From: Thermoproteota archaeon | GTDB lineage: Archaea; Korarchaeota; Korarchaeia; Korarchaeales; Korarchaeaceae | Direction: 5' to 3' | Assembly: GCA_027491415.1 (NCBI GenBank) | Contig: JAOZFH010000050.1 | Coordinates: forward strand, 1 to 64,000 | DNA: 64,000 nucleotides | Shown: positions 5,367-48,640 of the stretch, piece by piece | Position numbering within the stretch: the stretch's first letter is position 1 | Layout: each line of letters opens with the position of its first letter | The notes under the pieces: model-generated | The model's input: the letters and a program-made list of their open reading frames with translations, nothing else | Database searches by the model: none | Told to the model about the DNA's origin: nothing | Program-made: the position numbers and the translations under genes

Positions 5367-5660
5367 ATGGAGGATATGACTTGGGATGAGCTGATCGAGG
5401 AGACCCTGGGCAGCAGGGGGAGGATCAGGATACTGAGGGTGCTCGCCAGGAGGGGTCAGGTCAACATGAGCCGCCTTGCCAGGGAGTGTGGGCTCAGCTA
5501 CGAATCGACCAAGTCGCACGTGGACAGACTCAGGGAACTCGGGCTCGTGGACGTGAGGAGGGTGGGGAGGGTCGTCCTGATAAGGATCAGCGACCACCCA
5601 CTCTCCGTCATGCTCAGGGACATTCTCTTGGGGCCGGAGCGGATCCGAGAGGGTCCCTGA
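5367..5660 (+). CDS. Winged-helix transcriptional regulator
   Basis: A 97-residue single-domain wHTH protein. The helix-turn-helix is NMSRLARECGLSYESTKSHV (residues about 35-54) followed by the wing LGLVDVRRVGRVVLIRI. It resembles archaeal ArsR/MarR-like regulators in size, with no ligand-binding extension and no metal-binding cysteines. It begins 37 nt after mvaA on the same strand and could be cotranscribed, but a regulatory link to the mevalonate genes is only suggested by position. Confidence 0.8.
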   Translation: MEDMTWDELIEETLGSRGRIRILRVLARRGQVNMSRLARECGLSYESTKSHVDRLRELGLVDVRRVGRVVLIRISDHPLSVMLRDILLGPERIREGP

Positions 5661-5738
5661 GAGTCGGCCGCACTTGTGACCGACCGCCGGGGCCGATGCT
5701 CACGGTTTATTTGATCCGGGAGAGGTTTGGGTTCAACG

Positions 5739-6613
5739 TTGGGAGACGCCAGTCGCACGACAGGGCTCCGCTTGATGAGAGCGAACCAATTGCCGTACGT
5801 TCTGGATCTCAGCCGGAGAGGGAGGTTCGGGATCAGCATGACCGTGTTCAGGAGGGGTGAGTGGGACCGCTTGTGGGATGGGCAGGCGGTGGTTCGCCGC
5901 CGAGATTCCGCGGGTCCTGGAGGAGGAAAGGGAGTTTTACTCCCTCCCAGAGTATGCGATAGCCGGAGCTTCGAGGGCTCCCGACTCCCTCCTTCGACCC
6001 CGCATCGCCCACTCTCGGGATGAGCCCTGCCACCCAGTCCCACCCTTCGGCAGGAGACACGGGTTCTCCGATCCGAGGGAGGCGAGCGCGTGGGTCAGGA
6101 GAGACACCAAAACGCCCACCCTCGGAGCCGAGGCGGCGACCGGCCTGGGCTACTCCAAGCTGGTGCCCCTCCTGTCGTGCGTGGGTGAGTTCATCAGGTC
6201 TCGGCTATGGGGCCATCGAGTCGAGGAACGACACCGCCCTGAACATCCCCTTGGCCATAGACGCCGGTCTAGGAAAGCTGGGCGGGAGCGGGCTTCTGAT
6301 AACTCCGCAGTTTGGCCCGAGGGTAAGGCTCTGCAAGGTGCTCACCGACCTCCCGATGGAGCCCGATGGCCCGATCGAGTTCGGCGTCAGGGAGTTCTGC
6401 AGGAGGTGCAAGCTCTGCGCGGAGAGCTGCGAGGTCGGGGCCATCCCGAAGGACAATGAGCCCGAGTTAGAGGGGCTGACCAAGTCGAACAACCCGAGGG
6501 CCCTGAAGTGGTACATTGACCCGGAGAGGTGCCACCTCCACTGGTGCGAGAACGGGGAGTCCTGCTCCACCTGCATGGCGGTGTGCCCCTACAGCAAGTT
6601 GGAGGCCCGCTGA
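5739..6613 (+). pseudogene. Decayed reductive-dehalogenase-like (RdhA family) iron-sulfur corrinoid protein
   Basis: Fragments in three frames align in order with RdhA-type proteins. The N-terminal piece ISMTVFRRGEWDRLW is followed, after a shift near 5870, by GRRWFAAEIPRVLEEEREFY and SLPEYAIAGASRA, then DPREASAWVRR and ATGLGYSKLVPLLSCVGEFI. After another shift near 6200 come GYGAIESRNDTALNIPLAID, LLITPQFGPRVRLCKVLTDL and two cluster motifs: CRRCKLCAESC and, nearer the end, CHLHWC with CSTCMAVCP. About 290 codons remain of the usual 450 or so, so part of the corrinoid-binding region is also lost. A TATA-like GTTTATTTG (5704-5712) remains. It cannot make a working enzyme as read. Epoxyqueuosine reductase is related but lacks the NDTALNIPLA and FGVREFC pattern. 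Confidence 0.75.
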
Positions 6614-38195: not shown

Positions 38196-38576
38196 TTAAC
38201 TCTCCCTAGACCTCCAATTCCTCTCCAGTTCCTCCAGTATGCCAGGGTCGCCGGCCAGGATCCTACCCACGCGCAGGATCTCATCCACGATTCTCCTCCC
38301 TTGCCTGGCCATCTCGACGAGTTCGCTCTTCTCGTAGACGAAGGGGTCTAGGTCGATCGGGAGGCTCGGATCCAAGAACTCCCCCACACGCTCCGCCGGA
38401 TCGCCTGGGGCTGATCCGTCGGGCACGACCACCACTACATCGGCGTCCGAGAAGGCCGTGTAGTTTCCCCTGGCCAGCGACCCTATCAATATCACCGCCA
38501 GGGCTCCCTCCCTCACCTTCCTCCGGGCGTAGGAGGAGAGTGATCTCACAACTCCATCGTAGTCAAGCCTGAACAA
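38196..38576 (-). CDS. MNT-type minimal nucleotidyltransferase (antitoxin)
   Basis: A 126-residue nucleotidyltransferase with the signature LIGSLARGNYTAFSDADVVV (GS, then DxD), and an additional acidic pair in PIDLDPFVYEKSEL. In MNT/HEPN modules this enzyme neutralises the HEPN RNase, in studied cases by adding AMP to it. The start is probably TTG at 38576, overlapping the HEPN stop by 14 nt; there is no ATG nearby in frame. It is the second gene of the pair. Confidence 0.82.
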   Translation of the reverse strand: MFRLDYDGVVRSLSSYARRKVREGALAVILIGSLARGNYTAFSDADVVVVVPDGSAPGDPAERVGEFLDPSLPIDLDPFVYEKSELVEMARQGRRIVDEILRVGRILAGDPGILEELERNWRSRES

Positions 38577-38958
38577 CTTTACCCCTGACCCACTCGAGTA
38601 TCTCACTCGCATAGGAAATCGCCCTCTCGGCCTGCTCCCTCGTGTAGTAGTCCATGGGAGCGCCTTCGGGGTGGGCGTTCGGATACCTGGAAGGGATGTA
38701 GTGCTGATCCAGCTCCTTAGCCATCTCGACGAGTTCTCGAGGAGGTCTGCTCTCCTCCGGTAGAGCCTGTAGGAGCCTGGAGACTGAGTGACCCCAGACC
38801 TCATTGCCCAGCATCTGGTGAAGAGCCTTAACCGCCTTCTCTGCCGCTTGGTGGGCGATGAGGCAGGCCCACTCGTAGAAACCATCCTCCAAAGCCCTTT
38901 TGGCAAACTCGAGGTCCCTGACGGCCTGCCTAAACCAGTCTCCAGACCGCGACACCAT
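38563..38958 (-). CDS. HEPN-domain protein (toxin)
   Basis: A 131-residue HEPN protein: DWFRQAVRDLEFAKRALEDG, FYEWACLIAHQAAEKAVKAL, GHSVSRLLQALPEE and the conserved SRYPNAHPEGAP, which contains an Rx4H arrangement as in HEPN RNases. The pair with the downstream nucleotidyltransferase is a standard HEPN/MNT toxin-antitoxin module. A minus-strand TATA-like AATTATTACC (about 38988-38997) lies 33 nt before the ATG, so the message is leaderless. Confidence 0.85.
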   Translation of the reverse strand: MVSRSGDWFRQAVRDLEFAKRALEDGFYEWACLIAHQAAEKAVKALHQMLGNEVWGHSVSRLLQALPEESRPPRELVEMAKELDQHYIPSRYPNAHPEGAPMDYYTREQAERAISYASEILEWVRGKVVQA

Positions 38959-39218: not shown

Positions 39219-39539
39219 ATGATGCTCCCATCAACATCCTGGGTAGATGGGTTGCCTCCCGTCCTCGCCTTACTTACACTCGCGCTGATGGTGGACCTGG
39301 TTGAGAGGCTCCTCGAGTACATCGGTAGGGCGATCTGCGGGTGGGACAGAGCGCCCCCCGAGAGGTCGGTTGACCTGTGGGTTCTGGCCGCCCTGATCAC
39401 CCTTGTCCTCTTCGTGCCGGGGCTGGGCCTGGGGTCGGTGTTCGCGCTTGGGCTCGTACTGATAGTCCTCGACCTGGTCTCCAAGCGAGAGAGGAGAGAA
39501 GAGAGGGTGAAGGCAAGTCAACCCCAGCTCTCTGCGTAA
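39219..39539 (+). CDS. Small membrane protein
   Basis: A 106-residue protein with two strongly hydrophobic segments (LPPVLALLTLALMVDLVERL and LWVLAALITLVLFVPGLGLG then SVFALGLVLIVLDL) and a charged tail SKRERREERVK. ATG at 39219 lies about 25 nt after a TATA-like CTTTTATCGG. The 3' end overlaps the convergent DUF3160 gene by 22 nt. No family recognised. Confidence 0.65.
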   Translation: MMLPSTSWVDGLPPVLALLTLALMVDLVERLLEYIGRAICGWDRAPPERSVDLWVLAALITLVLFVPGLGLGSVFALGLVLIVLDLVSKRERREERVKASQPQLSA

Positions 39540-41734
39540 AGATCCGAGATCCAGTCCGGGAGTTCGGGCGGATTCTGAGCGAGCATATCTCTCCACGATT
39601 CGTCGGTCAGCCTGTCCGAGATTGGGTGCTTGAACTCGTAGTACGTGAGAACAGGTCCGACTGCCACGTAGGTCCCATCTGGCGCTGGGAAAATCACCAC
39701 CAATAGATCTAAAGGTCCAACCCCCTCCTCTAGGGCCAGCCCGGAGTTCAGGTCTGTGTGGACATCCGCCACCATAACGGTGGACTTGGACCTCTCCGAG
39801 AGGCCTGACAGGATGTCTTCCAACACCTCCCCGATCCTCAGCAGGAACTTCACATCCTCCCTGGAGAGGGCCTCTCCAGCTAGCTCCCTCCTGGAGATCC
39901 TCGCCAGATTCTCCAGCAAGTCCTCCATGCCCGCCAGCCTGCGATCGGCATCCTCAGTCAAGTACCCCAAGGAGCGGAGGCCCTCCCTCGACTGCCTCGT
40001 GAGTGCGAGAAGCCTGTCGTAGAGCTCTGGGATCGGCTCCACGAAGGCCAGCCTCTCGGGCGTGGCCGGAGGCGCTGCAGCCAACTTTGGAGTGTAGCTC
40101 TGCTTCGCGTAGAGAATCGTGTCGTGCCTCAGCTCGGACCACGACGCCAGGGCCGCGAGGAGCTGTCTGCGCTCCCACGCCTCGGTCCTCATGTACGCGG
40201 GGTAGCCCTCCGGCCTGGGGCTCGCGAGGATCCTCAGCGCGTCCAGCCAGGACCAGTACAGGTTCCTCGACCAGTCATCCTCGCTCAGGTTCGAGAACTC
40301 CTCCCTGAGCCGGGCCACCACGTCCTCGTAGCGCTCGTAGTCGGCATCCCCCTCCTCCCTCATCACCTGCAGGGCGGTCTCGCTCCCGACCACGGCGAAC
40401 CAGTCTAGACCCCTCGGGAACACCCTGGCCGGCCCGCCGTCGGTAAGGCCCAACGTGAACGGCTCGTCGTCTCCCGTGTACAGGCCGACCGAGGGGGTCA
40501 CGAGCCTCTGGAAGACGTACGAGTCTGGGACGTATCGCTGGCCCATGAACCTCATCCCCGCGCTCGCGTCGAGGCACTCCGCCAAGTCCTCCTCCGTGAA
40601 GGGCGGGTAGACCACACAGAACCCGGTCCCGCCGTAGATCTTGGGTCTCCCCATCCCGGCGACCAGCGCCCTGATCTCGTCTATCCTGCCGGGAATCTGC
40701 CGGGCCTCGACCGAGTCTCCAAAGAGCTCTGCGAGGGCCTCCAGGTAGTCGTAGGGGGTTAGGTCGTCCGCAAAGCCCACAAAGAAGGCTGTCACCGAGT
40801 ATATATCGCTCCAGACCTCTCCCACAGTCCTGCCGTCCCCGAGCTCCACGTTCGGCATGGCCGCGGAGATCAGAGCGGCCTGGAGAGTGAGCATCCTGGC
40901 CTGGTCGGCCGTCACGAACCCGCCGGGCCCCCCTCTCAGGAGGAAGGCCATCCTCCCGTACCACATCATCGCCCTGAAGTACCTCCGGAGCGTCTCCGAG
41001 CGAGTGTAGTGGCCTCTGGGAATGTACTGGCTGTAGTCTTCCTTGTACCAGAAGAGGGGGCTTCTCTGCACCCCCGGGTGGGACTCTATCAGGCTCAGCT
41101 CAGCCTGAACGACGTCCCGCACCTCTCTGGGGGGCTCGAAGTCTGGGTCTAAGAGCGAGAGGGCCACCGCGAAGTATGCCGCGTTCCTCCTGGCGGCCTC
41201 CGCCACCTCCCCCTGCGATCCCATGCTGAGGGTGAGGCTCTCCTCCATCATGGCCCTCGTGACTGCCACCAAGTCCGGGTAGATCTTCTGCTCCTCTATC
41301 TGGGCGAGTGTGGTGTCGAAGAGCACGTGATACGCGTGCAGTACGGTGTCTGCCGTGACGTAGACGGGCACGGTCGGGGGCAGGGCCTCGTAGGCCTCCG
41401 AGAAGTCGTCGAAGGCGCCCCACCTCACCAAAACGAAGCCCCTCTCCAGTACGGACGTCCTCTGGGCCGGGCCCAGGTTGAGGACATCCATGGCGTCTGG
41501 GTTGGCCAGCTGAGACTCCTCGAGGGGGAGCGACTGACTCAGGGAGGTCGGAGCTGGCCTGGCCGGGGAGACGCTTGGCGGGGGGAGCCCCGGCCTCCTG
41601 AGAGAGGAGAGCTCGTAGCCGACCCCGCTCGGACCGACCACACCACCGCCGCCCCGACCAGACCATAAGAAGTAGGCGGCGGCCGCGGGCAGCGAGAGGG
41701 CGAGCGCCAGGACGGCGAGCGATCGGGCGCGCAC
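39518..41734 (-). CDS. DUF3160 surface protein
   Basis: A 738-residue protein with an N-terminal membrane anchor (LAVLALALSLPAAAAYFLWS) and a large extracytoplasmic DUF3160 domain: FDDFSEAYEALPPTVPVYVT, ADTVLHAYHVLFDTTLAQIE, YFRAMMWYGRMAFLL, and near the end VADVHTDLNSGLALEEG and VGPVLTYYEF. DUF3160 proteins are secreted, all-helical and of unknown function. GTG at 41734 was chosen: a TATA-like GGTTAAAAG (41755-41763) is 25 nt upstream and the membrane helix follows directly. Longer frames would read through this promoter and the palindrome behind it. Confidence 0.85.
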   Translation of the reverse strand: MRARSLAVLALALSLPAAAAYFLWSGRGGGGVVGPSGVGYELSSLRRPGLPPPSVSPARPAPTSLSQSLPLEESQLANPDAMDVLNLGPAQRTSVLERGFVLVRWGAFDDFSEAYEALPPTVPVYVTADTVLHAYHVLFDTTLAQIEEQKIYPDLVAVTRAMMEESLTLSMGSQGEVAEAARRNAAYFAVALSLLDPDFEPPREVRDVVQAELSLIESHPGVQRSPLFWYKEDYSQYIPRGHYTRSETLRRYFRAMMWYGRMAFLLRGGPGGFVTADQARMLTLQAALISAAMPNVELGDGRTVGEVWSDIYSVTAFFVGFADDLTPYDYLEALAELFGDSVEARQIPGRIDEIRALVAGMGRPKIYGGTGFCVVYPPFTEEDLAECLDASAGMRFMGQRYVPDSYVFQRLVTPSVGLYTGDDEPFTLGLTDGGPARVFPRGLDWFAVVGSETALQVMREEGDADYERYEDVVARLREEFSNLSEDDWSRNLYWSWLDALRILASPRPEGYPAYMRTEAWERRQLLAALASWSELRHDTILYAKQSYTPKLAAAPPATPERLAFVEPIPELYDRLLALTRQSREGLRSLGYLTEDADRRLAGMEDLLENLARISRRELAGEALSREDVKFLLRIGEVLEDILSGLSERSKSTVMVADVHTDLNSGLALEEGVGPLDLLVVIFPAPDGTYVAVGPVLTYYEFKHPISDRLTDESWRDMLAQNPPELPDWISDLYAESWG

Positions 41735-41771
41735 GAGCTTCCACCCGAGCGACCCTTTTAACCCTGCGCCG

Positions 41772-41797
41772 AAAGGTGCGAGGCTCCTCGCACCTTT
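41772..41797. promoter_or_regulatory. Perfect 26-bp palindrome upstream of DUF3160 promoter
   Basis: AAAGGTGCGAGG, spacer CT, CCTCGCACCTTT: the 12-nt arms are exact reverse complements. Its centre is about 25 bp upstream of the TATA centre of the DUF3160 gene. The same motif, less perfect, stands in the same place before the DUF4349 gene (26045-26068). Chance formation of such a long palindrome in 64 kb is very unlikely. Confidence 0.8.
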
Positions 41798-41866
41798 TTG
41801 GCGAGGAGCGCCTGACCGGCGCCGGCCGGCCTCCATTTTATAATCGGGTCGACCCGACCTGATGGC

Positions 41867-42397
41867 GTGCTCGCCCGGAAGGCCCTCTCGGTTCTCTGCG
41901 CGTCGCTCGGCATCGTGTACCTGGCCCAAGACCTGGTCCTCGCCTTCTCCGTCGAGGTGGCCCCGGTCTGGCTCGTCCTGGAGAACACCTTCTTCGCCTT
42001 CGCCTACGTCAGTCTCGGGACCTTCAGAACCCTTAAGAGGTCGGAGATTGTCCTCTCCGCGGTTGCGGGGTTCAGCGCGGGGAGGACAGTTGACTCGATT
42101 CTGGACGCGTCTGCCCCGGCCTACCTACGTGCGCTTCGCTCGGCCCTGGCCCTGGTGGCGCTGGCGGTCGTGGGTCTGTCTTGGGCCTCTATCTCGTGTG
42201 CTGGGGATGGTAAGAGAGAATGCCGGGGAGAGCTGGGGCGAGATAGAGCGGATGAGCAGGCGATTCATGAAAGGAGGAGTGAGGACTCAACGCCGCCAGC
42301 ACCTGCCGCGCGCCGATCCGCTGGCTCCAGGCGGAGGAACCTGAGGGATCTATCTGCCCGCCGGTCGAGTCGGCCCCGGGGAGGACCCCATCCCTAG
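41867..42397 (+). CDS. Membrane protein with Arg-rich tail
   Basis: A 176-residue protein with four membrane segments in the first 110 residues (ALSVLCASLGIVYLAQDLVL, LVLENTFFAFAYVSLGTF, VLSAVAGFSAG and ALALVALAVVGLSWASI), then a polar Arg/Ser-rich tail. GTG at 41867 is 27 nt from the centre of the TATA-like ATTTTATAAT (41835-41844). The tail looks unlike a folded domain; a frameshift near 42210 that ends the natural protein early cannot be excluded. No family recognised. Confidence 0.55.
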   Translation: MLARKALSVLCASLGIVYLAQDLVLAFSVEVAPVWLVLENTFFAFAYVSLGTFRTLKRSEIVLSAVAGFSAGRTVDSILDASAPAYLRALRSALALVALAVVGLSWASISCAGDGKRECRGELGRDRADEQAIHERRSEDSTPPAPAARRSAGSRRRNLRDLSARRSSRPRGGPHP

Positions 42398-43432: not shown

Positions 43433-43609
43433 ACGGAGCCGCAGAAGCCGGGACCTCTTCTCAGCCTAAATGCAGATAAAGAAGCAAAGCAGATCGTCTG
43501 CGCGTCCTTCCATACGAGAGCTTAGCGAAAAATCCGGTATCCGCCTAAGGCTTTGACGACCGAGAGTGGGGCACCAGCAGTTGAACAAAACGGTATACAG
43601 CATCCAGTT

Positions 43610-43634
43610 GTTTACCTAATAGGTAAACTTTATA
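43610..43634 (+). promoter_or_regulatory. Promoter with perfect palindromic operator
   Basis: GTTTACC-TAATA-GGTAAAC (43610-43628) has exact 7-nt arms and overlaps the left edge of the TATA-like AACTTTATAG (43626-43634). The ATG of the first gene is 29 nt further on. A dimeric repressor here would block the TATA box; the HTH at the C-terminus of the second gene product is a natural candidate. Confidence 0.65.
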
Positions 43635-43658
43635 GCCCTCGAGTTCGGGGAGGTCTCA

Positions 43659-44138
43659 ATGCGGTCGAGCTGGCGTATCCCCCTCGAGCTCCTCGCGGGA
43701 GCGGCTGCGGCGATCCCGATAACCCTGACAGGGAGAGTCCCTGACCATGCACCCTTAGACCTGGGCTTCGTAGTGAAGCTGCTATTAGCGTGGCTCTCAA
43801 CAATGATGCTCCCATCTGCCGCAATCTCGGCGCTCTCGCTCGTCCTAGGGGGAGAGAGAATAAGGGAGAAATGCGGGGGGCTGCCAGCCGGAGGGAGGAT
43901 AATCGGCTACCTCGAGAGGAGCGTCATCTTCTCTGTGTTCTTGATTTCCAAGATCGAGGACATCCCGCTGAAGGACGTGATGAACGTCTTGGGCCTGCTG
44001 GTGGCCGGAAAGGCCATCTTCCGGTTCTCCAGAGCGGAGGAGAGGGTGTGCGCCGACTGGCACATCATCGGAACCTTCTCGAGCCTCCTCGCCGGAACCG
44101 TGATGAGCTGGCTGCTCCTGTCTCCGCTGGTGGGATGA
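43659..44138 (+). CDS. DUF3307-like membrane protein
   Basis: A 159-residue protein with about four membrane helices. The second half has the layout of the C-terminal part of DUF3307 proteins: GGRIIGYLERSVIFSVFLIS, LLVAGKAIFRFSRAEE and DWHIIGTFSSLLAGTVMSWL (the usual family pattern is G..IG.LER, AAK...RF, EY.LIGTLLS). The N-terminal half is shorter than in bacteria. It overlaps the next gene (ATGATG across the stop), a SatD-like protein; DUF3307 and SatD genes are also neighbours in bacteria. The function of the pair is unknown. Confidence 0.65.
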   Translation: MRSSWRIPLELLAGAAAAIPITLTGRVPDHAPLDLGFVVKLLLAWLSTMMLPSAAISALSLVLGGERIREKCGGLPAGGRIIGYLERSVIFSVFLISKIEDIPLKDVMNVLGLLVAGKAIFRFSRAEERVCADWHIIGTFSSLLAGTVMSWLLLSPLVG

Positions 44139-44803
44139 TGCCGGTGGCGGTCGTGGTGGACCTGTCTGGCTCCAGAAAGATGGAGGTCCGGAAGAAGGTG
44201 AGGCTCTACGGTGAGATAGGGAGGCTGCTGGGGGAGTCCCATAGTAGGTTCCGGAGGGAGTGCCTAGTCAGACCGGCTCTTACGGCGGGGGACAGCGTGG
44301 AGTTCTTGGTGAACTGGTGGCGACCGCCGACGTTCTTTCTCCACGCCCTAAAGGTCTCAGTCCCAGACGTAGAGTTTCGAGTCGGCGTCGGAGCGGGGGA
44401 GGTTCACGTGCTAGGAGAGAGCGCAGACGAGTGCGACGGACCGGCGTTTTGGAGGGCCCGCGAGGCTCTCGAGGATCTAAAGTTGATCAGGGGTGTGGGG
44501 AGGGAGTCTATAGCAGACCTCAAGGTGGACCCCTCTGCCGGCCCTTCCGACGTCCACTTGGCGGGGGTGATATCTCTGACGGTCGGCCTCCTGGCCAACA
44601 TGTCCGAGAGGAAGCTGGCCTACTGTTACCATCACGCCTGGCTCGGCGAGAAGATGAGCGACATAGCCAGGGAGTTTGGGGTGACGAGGGGAAACGTCAG
44701 CAAAGTGCTCAGGGGGACCGACTGCCGCTTGCTGGTGAGGCTCGCCGCCCTCGGCCCCGTTGAACGCCCGCAGTCAAGCGCCCGGCGGACGCTACGCCGA
44801 TAA
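44135..44803 (+). CDS. SatD-family protein with C-terminal helix-turn-helix
   Basis: A 222-residue protein. The N-terminal part follows the SatD pattern: VAVVVDLSGSRKMEVRKKVR, LTAGDSVEFLVNWW, EFRVGVGAGEVHVLG and CDGPAFWRAREALEDLKLI. Order and spacing (D.SxSR, GD.F, R.GvG.GE, GpAf.rA) also recall class III nucleotide cyclase-type folds. The last 60 residues contain an HTH: KMSDIAREFGVTRGNVSKVL. It is translationally coupled to the DUF3307-like membrane protein. It may be a sensor-regulator that binds a nucleotide and the operator at 43610; this is inference. Confidence 0.7.
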   Translation: MMPVAVVVDLSGSRKMEVRKKVRLYGEIGRLLGESHSRFRRECLVRPALTAGDSVEFLVNWWRPPTFFLHALKVSVPDVEFRVGVGAGEVHVLGESADECDGPAFWRAREALEDLKLIRGVGRESIADLKVDPSAGPSDVHLAGVISLTVGLLANMSERKLAYCYHHAWLGEKMSDIAREFGVTRGNVSKVLRGTDCRLLVRLAALGPVERPQSSARRTLRR

Positions 44804-45111: not shown

Positions 45112-45366
45112 ATGATAGTGAGGAGGAGGGTGGGCCCGAAGGGGCAGATAGTCATTCCCAAGATAATCAGGGAGTTCCTCGGGATGGAGCCCGGAACAGA
45201 GGTCCTTCTGGAGGTCCAGGAGGACAGGCTCATAATCAGACCCAGCATGGATCCGGCTGACTTCGTCAACGAGTTCTGCTCGCAGGTGAAGGAGAAGCTG
45301 ACTGGAGAGGTGAATCTGGAGAGGATCTTGGAGGAGGAGGTGGAGGAGAGGGTTGCTCTACGTTGA
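45112..45366 (+). CDS. vapB: AbrB/SpoVT-type antitoxin (VapB)
   Basis: An 84-residue antitoxin. The AbrB hairpin domain is RRRVGPKGQIVIPKIIREFL then GMEPGTEVLLEVQEDRLIIR; the tail DPADFVNEFCSQVKEKLTGE and ERILEEEVEERVALR is helical and would bind the toxin. The stop overlaps the TTG start of vapC by 14 nt. Not closely similar in sequence to the antitoxin at 686-916. Confidence 0.88.
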   Translation: MIVRRRVGPKGQIVIPKIIREFLGMEPGTEVLLEVQEDRLIIRPSMDPADFVNEFCSQVKEKLTGEVNLERILEEEVEERVALR

Positions 45367-45757
45367 CTCCAACGTGTTCATCTACCCCGCGATCTACGAC
45401 CCAGGAGATGAGCGGGCTAAGAGGTCGAGGGACCTCCTGCTGAAGATAGCTTCGGGCGAGGTGGAAGCTAGCACCTCGCTCCTCACGTGGGATGAGGTAG
45501 TCTGGGTCGTTAGGAAGCTGGCTGGCGTCGAGGCCTCCGTAAGGCAGGGCGCTCTCCTGCTCAAGTTCCCACACCTCAGGTTCCTCTCCTTGACGGAGTC
45601 TACGGTATTGAGGGCGCAGATGATCATGGAGGAGTACGGGCTCAAGCCCAGAGACTCGCTGCATGCGGCGTCAGCCCTGGAGAGCGGGATTAGGATCGTA
45701 GCGAGCTACGACGAGGACTTTGATAGGATAAGGGGCATAGAGAGGGTGGAGCCCTAG
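45353..45757 (+). CDS. vapC: VapC-type PIN-domain ribonuclease (toxin)
   Basis: A 134-residue PIN protein with D5 (LYVDSNVFIYP), the acidic DE pair in LLTWDEVVWVV, D in LKPRDSLHAASAL and the final ASYDEDFDRI motif, all normal for active VapC. The start is TTG at 45353, inside the antitoxin gene, so its translation depends on vapB. Confidence 0.88.
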   Translation: MLYVDSNVFIYPAIYDPGDERAKRSRDLLLKIASGEVEASTSLLTWDEVVWVVRKLAGVEASVRQGALLLKFPHLRFLSLTESTVLRAQMIMEEYGLKPRDSLHAASALESGIRIVASYDEDFDRIRGIERVEP

Positions 45758-47964: not shown

Positions 47965-48405
47965 TCATCGCCCGGATCTCCGTCCACCTGCTGATCCAGC
48001 TGCCCGCACGAACTCATCCAGGGGTATGAGGCCAAGGCCGAACTGTGACATCCTCTCGAAATGCCTCAGGTTTCCCGTGACCAGGCCGACCCCGAGCTCA
48101 ATGGCGCTAGCCCCGACTATGAGGTCGCGGAACTCCAGCCTCTCCCCGCGCCTGGTGAGCTCCAGGTCAACCATGAGGGCCCTCCTCAGGATCGTCTGGG
48201 AGATCGGGACGACCTCGTACACCCGCTCGAGGGCCCCCTTCTCCTCGTCTAAATCCCTCCCCAGGTAGGCTAGACCGAAGAGATACTCGTATAGGGTTAT
48301 CTGGGAGATTAGGCACCTATACCTGTCCAAGACGGTAGACAGGGTCTCAGGCCTCCTGTGCAGCTCAATGAGGGCGTCCGTGTCTAGTAGGACCTCCTCC
48401 ACCAC
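47965..48405 (-). CDS. vapC: VapC-type PIN-domain ribonuclease (toxin)
   Basis: A 146-residue PIN protein: LLDTDALIELH with the first Asp, ITLYEYLFGLAY with the conserved Glu, RLEFRDLIVGASAIEL with the third acidic residue and VTGNLRHFERM, the usual end of this VapC subgroup. The short tail GSAGGRRSGR is basic and may be disordered. The gene overlaps its antitoxin by 22 nt. Confidence 0.88.
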   Translation of the reverse strand: MVEEVLLDTDALIELHRRPETLSTVLDRYRCLISQITLYEYLFGLAYLGRDLDEEKGALERVYEVVPISQTILRRALMVDLELTRRGERLEFRDLIVGASAIELGVGLVTGNLRHFERMSQFGLGLIPLDEFVRAAGSAGGRRSGR

Positions 48406-48617
48406 GACCCCCTCCTCTCCCGCACCACCTCCCTGAGCTTCTCCGCCTCGCGATCGCGGAGCATGAGCCTGTCCACGAGCTCCCTCGCTTTTGAGGTCCT
48501 GTGCTCCTCCACAAGCTTGACTATCACTTCCTCGTAGGTTCTAAGGCCGAGCTCCTCCTTCATCCTCTTCAGCATCGCGAGGGTCTCGCGGGAGATCGTG
48601 AGGGTGGTCCTGCCCAT
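48384..48617 (-). CDS. vapB: VapB-type antitoxin
   Basis: A 77-residue antitoxin unlike the AbrB type at the other two loci: TTLTISRETLAMLKRMKEEL, GLRTYEEVIVKLVEEHR and a charged helix LMLRDREAEKLREVVRERR. The beta strand followed by two helices fits a ribbon-helix-helix-type DNA-binding start. ATG at 48617 is preferred to ATG 48638 because the TATA-like ACTTAATAG (48641-48649 on the minus strand) would leave no room for a message starting at 48638. Confidence 0.75.
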   Translation of the reverse strand: MGRTTLTISRETLAMLKRMKEELGLRTYEEVIVKLVEEHRTSKARELVDRLMLRDREAEKLREVVRERRGSWWRRSY

Positions 48618-48640
48618 CCGGGCGGGGGATGAGGGCATGC

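Follow-up and report, generated by a model that had tools for sequence, protein, structure and literature searches.

A SatD-family protein and a small membrane protein form a recurrent two-gene unit with phased palindromic candidate operators in Archaea and Bacteria

The gene pair and its promoter

The stretch of DNA analysed here (64,000 nucleotides of contig JAOZFH010000050.1, assembly GCA_027491415.1, from a Thermoproteota archaeon of the Korarchaeaceae; referred to as the window) carries two overlapping genes on the forward strand. The first gene (43659-44138, + strand) encodes a helical membrane protein of 159 amino acids, here termed MEM. The second gene (44135-44803, + strand) encodes SatD, a protein of 222 amino acids with an N-terminal domain of predicted cyclase/GGDEF fold and a C-terminal helix-turn-helix (HTH). 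Both open reading frames are intact and overlap in the sequence ATGA, which bears out the translational coupling claimed in an earlier note on this DNA. The name SatD derives from the acid-tolerance operon of Streptococcus mutans. The same pair is present in a sister species, where SatD is 98% identical; the 11 synonymous and 6 non-synonymous differences between the two SatD genes indicate purifying selection.

Upstream of MEM lies the main candidate operator GTTTACCTAATAGGTAAAC (43610-43628), a perfect palindrome of the form GTTTACC-TAATA-GGTAAAC. Searching the 1.78 Mb genome with up to 3 mismatches returned this single site, with 0 matches for the reversed-pattern control; the palindrome recurs in relatives (see below). 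A degenerate copy, GTTGAACAAAACGGTATAC (43580-43598), is located exactly 30 bp from the main site, and both copies together reach a tandem score of 22/28, which was attained by 0 of 300 shuffles. The main site is followed by a TATA box, TTTATAG (43629-43635, + strand), which was read from the sequence and is conserved in the sister species. The operator had been described as a palindrome overlapping this box; the palindrome is indeed perfect, but it abuts the TATA box rather than overlapping it, and its right arm falls at the position expected for the archaeal BRE. The centre of the TATA box is located 27 nt before the ATG of MEM, a geometry suggesting that the MEM transcript may be leaderless. 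A scan for bacterial-type promoters at the locus returned none, as expected for an archaeon. Both palindromes and the TATA box form a block that is almost unchanged in the sister species, with many differences and indels in the flanks. As judged by sequence comparison, the genes, their overlap and the upstream candidate control sites are conserved together.

The SatD protein

SatD belongs to the family suggested by the earlier note: the Pfam scan assigns PF16264 with 34.4 bits (gathering cut-off 29) to amino acids 4-127. When aligned over its full length with SatD of bacteria and haloarchaea, the protein has the C-terminal HTH part seen in other PF16264 members. The HTH (amino acids 174-192 around GVTRGNVSKVLR; 44654-44710, + strand) is assigned by weak Pfam HTH matches, by profile matches to sigma region 4/UPF0122-type HTH structures, and by helices 174-181 and 185-192 of the AlphaFold model, in agreement with the earlier reading of the C-terminus. 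The model (pLDDT 88.3) displays a palm-like order of strands and helices, followed by a helical HTH domain.

The N-terminal domain (amino acids 4-131; 44144-44527, + strand) is supported by Foldseek and by alignment of archaeal and bacterial sequences. Foldseek comparison with the PDB ranks class III adenylyl cyclases best (probability 1.00, E 1.2e-3, TMt 0.51); GGDEF domains and GTP cyclohydrolase III come next. The cyclase-type core proposed from motif order is accordingly present in the predicted structure; a SatD fold lacking such a core, which would have spoken against the proposal, is not what the model shows. Residues D9, S13, G52, D53 and G102 are invariant across the archaeal and bacterial sequences aligned. 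Profile-profile comparison of SatD with a cyclase profile (hhalign) sets the D and GD motifs in register but is not significant (probability 0.7%, E 0.076), so that sequence profiles do not bear out a classical cyclase. Motif reading of class III GxxVNxAxR against GPAFWxAR of SatD places W at the Asn position and R one residue early; the transition-state Asn/Arg motif of class III cyclases is not kept. Querying a viral fold library with SatD gave no match below E 0.001.

SatD hence resembles class III nucleotidyl cyclases and GGDEF proteins in its predicted fold and in two conserved acidic positions, and differs from them by the lack of significant sequence similarity, by the altered Asn/Arg motif and by its C-terminal HTH. 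On the basis of the model, a nucleotide/metal sensor is the preferred reading of the N-terminal domain, which is not a proven cyclase; given the predicted cyclase/GGDEF-like fold and the two acidic positions kept, SatD probably senses a nucleotide or a nucleotide-metal complex. Among the papers searched, none gave a mechanism for SatD or contained SatD together with DUF3307.

The membrane partner

The Pfam scan yields no family match for MEM, DUF3307 (PF11750) included. Comparison by hhalign nevertheless relates MEM to the C-terminal module of DUF3307 proteins (probability 98, E 2.4e-13, 103 columns), and MEM and these proteins share the pattern G-x-x-IG-x-x-E / AAK-x-x-x-RF / GT-x-x-S. The description of MEM as a DUF3307-type partner is therefore right for the C-terminal module and does not hold for the Pfam domain itself, which is absent. 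In the partner protein of Halorientalis the Pfam DUF3307 domain lies in the N-terminal half, and the counterpart of MEM is the C-terminal half of such proteins. In the partners of Agrobacterium, Sphingomonas and Natronosalvus, the C-terminal half of the DUF3307-type protein makes up nearly the whole protein.

Conserved residues of MEM are E86-R87, K118, R122 and D/E133-W134. E86-R87 start one predicted helix, K118-R122 end the next one, and D/E133-W134 start the third. Since these residues fall at the start, end and start of successive predicted helices, the charged ones probably lie together at the same side of the membrane, a placement that follows from helix order and not from coordinates. 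Comparison of MEM with PDB folds gave no match worth naming, transporter folds included.

Recurrence and spacing of the palindromes

Among 16 genomes of the same family, palindromes with 0 mismatches are found only in front of the SatD-MEM pair, and none was found in six searched same-family genomes that do not carry the pair. Palindromes with 2 mismatches are few elsewhere, and the reversed control also gives such matches in some genomes. The claim of a single target holds at the stringency searched, at which weaker operators elsewhere could escape the pattern.

Loci of the korarchaeal type often carry two palindrome copies 29 bp apart. Across 20 SatD loci the best tandem spacing is 29 bp in 12 and 28-30 bp in 16, as compared to 2.2% and 8.1%, respectively, in dinucleotide shuffles; the corresponding binomial P of about 1e-15 assumes independent loci, several of which are related, so that independence is overstated. 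The period of 28-30 bp is seen in korarchaeal-type, Thorarchaeal, methanogen-like, haloarchaeal and alphaproteobacterial lineages ("methanogen-like" being a label inferred from gene content). The arms of the palindromes vary by lineage (e.g. TACAACC..GGTTGTA and GTTCGCC..GGCGAAC), whereas period and geometry stay. When the spacing test was repeated in Asgard archaea, several loci duplicated the earlier 20 and eleven Thorarchaeal-type loci were new; in all 11, no spacing scores higher than 29 bp. At most archaeal loci, the palindrome nearest to the promoter either adjoins the TATA box or includes it. The Arthrobacter locus carries a single palindrome, some Asgard operons with SatD as the first gene have no clear 29-bp palindrome pair, and no 29-bp pair is present in the stretch tested at two loci with SatD but no MEM (L036 and L119). 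As far as comparison of sequences can tell, the unique site, its recurrence before the pair in relatives and the conserved spacing and geometry support the earlier suggestion of a real operator.

Distribution and gene neighbourhood

Matches to PF16264 and to a MEM profile coincide across 394 archaeal genomes, and apparent mismatches mostly resolve on inspection: genomes G258 and G309 contain a SatD below the family cut-off adjoining MEM, and G352 contains a diverged MEM. Asgard genomes carry SatD in 27 of 228 cases, with MEM adjacent save at contig ends, in one case of MEM loss and in one case involving PycTM. In nearly all archaeal and bacterial loci examined (the bacterial ones taken from plasmid records) SatD and MEM are adjacent, in either gene order, and constitute, as judged from these genomes, a two-gene unit common to other archaea and bacteria. 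The order MEM-SatD is kept in further genera of the family (SatD identity 37-49%) and is also found in Thorarchaeotes and in another Thermoproteota metagenome-assembled genome (MAG). SatD comes first, followed by a membrane gene, in a further set of Asgard genomes (L124-L131), in two methanogen-like genomes, and at haloarchaeal and bacterial loci. The distribution is patchy and includes plasmids. At three loci (L017, L019, L090) MEM is split or contains stops, which could be MAG errors; one of these is a MEM relic without SatD. A SatD-like match in Aerococcus is degenerate and lies beside a DUF975 protein; it was left out.

Within one genus, the pair is flanked by phosphate-transport/PhoU genes and, on the other side, by an AstE-like gene. 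A conserved metabolic context, considered beforehand as evidence against a signalling or defence role, thus exists in this genus only, with phosphate-transport/PhoU genes on one side; outside of it the neighbours differ, and there is no general metabolic context. The placement of the pair in an accessory zone with toxin-antitoxin modules is correct insofar as VapBC and HEPN-MNT genes lie nearby, but apart from the partner gene no neighbour is generally conserved. The window contains VapBC-like pairs, consisting of an AbrB/MazE or VapB-type antitoxin and a PIN protein, at 45112-45757 (+ strand) and 47965-48638 (- strand), and a HEPN plus nucleotidyltransferase pair of the HEPN-MNT type at 38196-38958 (- strand). 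A DUF3160 protein of 803 amino acids (631 bits) is encoded at 39518-41929 (- strand); at the equivalent position, the sister species has an open reading frame of 737 amino acids that looks like the same gene.

PADLOC returned no match for MEM or SatD, comparison with PHROG gave only marginal HTH matches, neither protein matches toxin-antitoxin or defence families, and no relatives were found in phages or viral contigs. The neighbouring genes inspected show no pattern of a defence island either, and the reading of the pair as a defence system finds no support other than a single PycTM case. At one Thorarchaeal locus (L036) SatD occurs without the usual MEM, and a gene for a PycTM-type membrane effector (5388-5909, - strand; PF18967 34.8 bits, PADLOC E 5e-22) is located divergently at a distance of 88 bp. 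This keeps the idea of a signalling pair alive, although it is a single case: PycTM was found beside SatD in L036 only, and MEM itself has no PycTM match in Pfam or PADLOC. Upstream of the AUK152 pair (L037:361-1617, + strand) lies a gene for a protein of 418 amino acids with an MCM_C-type winged HTH and weak matches to CasR/CARF3.

A possible mechanism and its alternatives

Based on this data, we hypothesize that SatD serves as a dedicated autorepressor, probably responding to a nucleotide, and that its sole output is its own operon and hence MEM; we put the probability of this at roughly 0.58. The coupling of the genes, their co-occurrence, the conservation and spacing of the operators and, at the stringency searched, the single target can be read directly from the genomes. 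Contact between SatD and this DNA is suggested by their co-conservation, and SatD would bind the phased palindromes at its own promoter as dimers. In archaea, an operator that abuts or contains the TATA box normally means repression. Repression is therefore expected here, since the promoter-proximal palindrome abuts or contains TATA/BRE in most archaeal cases, and SatD bound to this palindrome would block TBP/TFB. A nucleotide or nucleotide-metal complex sensed by the N-terminal domain may change DNA binding, and the output of the operon would be the level of MEM (and of SatD). As the site is found only at the own operon, MEM, or SatD itself, would have to be the effector; the charged residues of MEM may constitute its functional site or the place where SatD docks. 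More tentatively, the pairs could represent a so far unrecognised class of membrane-coupled transcriptional switches across Archaea and Bacteria, in which an HTH protein that senses nucleotides through a cyclase fold assembles on palindromes phased at 29 bp and controls its own operon only, with MEM as the sole, possibly lethal, membrane output. If confirmed, the autorepressor reading would bring a further protein family into the group of operons that combine a regulator with a membrane protein, of which the LytTR regulatory systems (LRS) are the type, and would be a case of a cyclase fold used as sensor in a one-component regulator. The predicted sensor fold, the defined candidate operator, the single target and the minimal partner make SatD a directly testable regulator.

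Transporter-regulator pairs usually consist of a membrane gene and, next to it, the gene of a dedicated regulator that has one target. SatD and MEM fit this layout, and the conserved charged residues beside the MEM helices would suit a protein that exports or imports a small molecule sensed by SatD; given the very small size of MEM and the lack of a transporter fold in the PDB comparison or of a family match in Pfam, we consider such a function doubtful. The closest published layout is that of LRS, a two-gene autoregulated operon of a DNA-binding and a membrane protein with repeated elements upstream of its promoter, which is widely scattered in bacteria and some archaea (PMC6193735). In LRS, the repeats are direct ones that lie upstream of -35, and the feedback is positive. 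By analogy, MEM may be a membrane inhibitor that holds SatD inactive until MEM receives a signal; SatD would then be freed to control its own promoter, perhaps by activating it. Besides the shared layout (PMC6193735), the almost constant adjacency of MEM and SatD agrees with this idea, which we likewise regard as doubtful: the position of the archaeal palindromes, next to the TATA box or around it, fits repression and not positive feedback. The LRS proteins are unrelated to SatD and MEM, and no LytTR DNA-binding domain was matched in the Pfam scan.

In another possible scenario, MEM would be a harmful membrane protein kept low by SatD as repressor or antitoxin. The overlap of two small genes, their self-control through a palindrome, the patchy distribution, the copies on plasmids and the decayed MEM copies are consistent with a toxin-antitoxin-like pair. 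In Streptococcus pyogenes, satD is present in 178 of 249 genomes, and no other accessory gene stands with it in the highest essentiality class of all transposon studies (PMC11323703). A gene that represses a toxic product would be expected to behave in this way, which lends some weight to a toxic output as far as satD is concerned. Considering the lack of matches to toxin-antitoxin or defence families and the presence of SatD without MEM in two Asgard genomes, this scenario appears rather unlikely, but a toxic MEM is a serious alternative. Very unlikely, in our opinion, is a second-messenger system in which a cyclic or linear nucleotide produced by SatD would act on MEM, in the manner of Pycsar or Panoptes. 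The predicted cyclase-type fold with both acidic positions kept and the PycTM gene near one MEM-less Thorarchaeal SatD would fit, and Pycsar (PycC cyclase plus PycTM) likewise joins a cyclase-fold protein with a membrane partner. However, W replaces N in the class III Asn/Arg motif, MEM is not PycTM, SatD has an HTH and a dedicated operator, a defence context is missing, and the PycTM case is single.

Among known systems, a close counterpart is the pair BV210_RS18205/RS18210 on plasmid pHOS300 of Halorientalis, consisting of SatD and a DUF3307 partner. Here, SatD likewise exceeds the PF16264 cut-off, the membrane partner likewise overlaps by few bases, and phased palindromes are likewise located upstream. 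The pair differs from the one in the window by its reversed gene order and by a partner that has the Pfam DUF3307 domain, which MEM lacks, MEM being equivalent to the C-terminal module only. At the Halorientalis locus L048, about four palindromes of the GTTCGCC/GTTCGGT type, and thus more than two phased copies, are located in a leader of 130 bp upstream of 4971.
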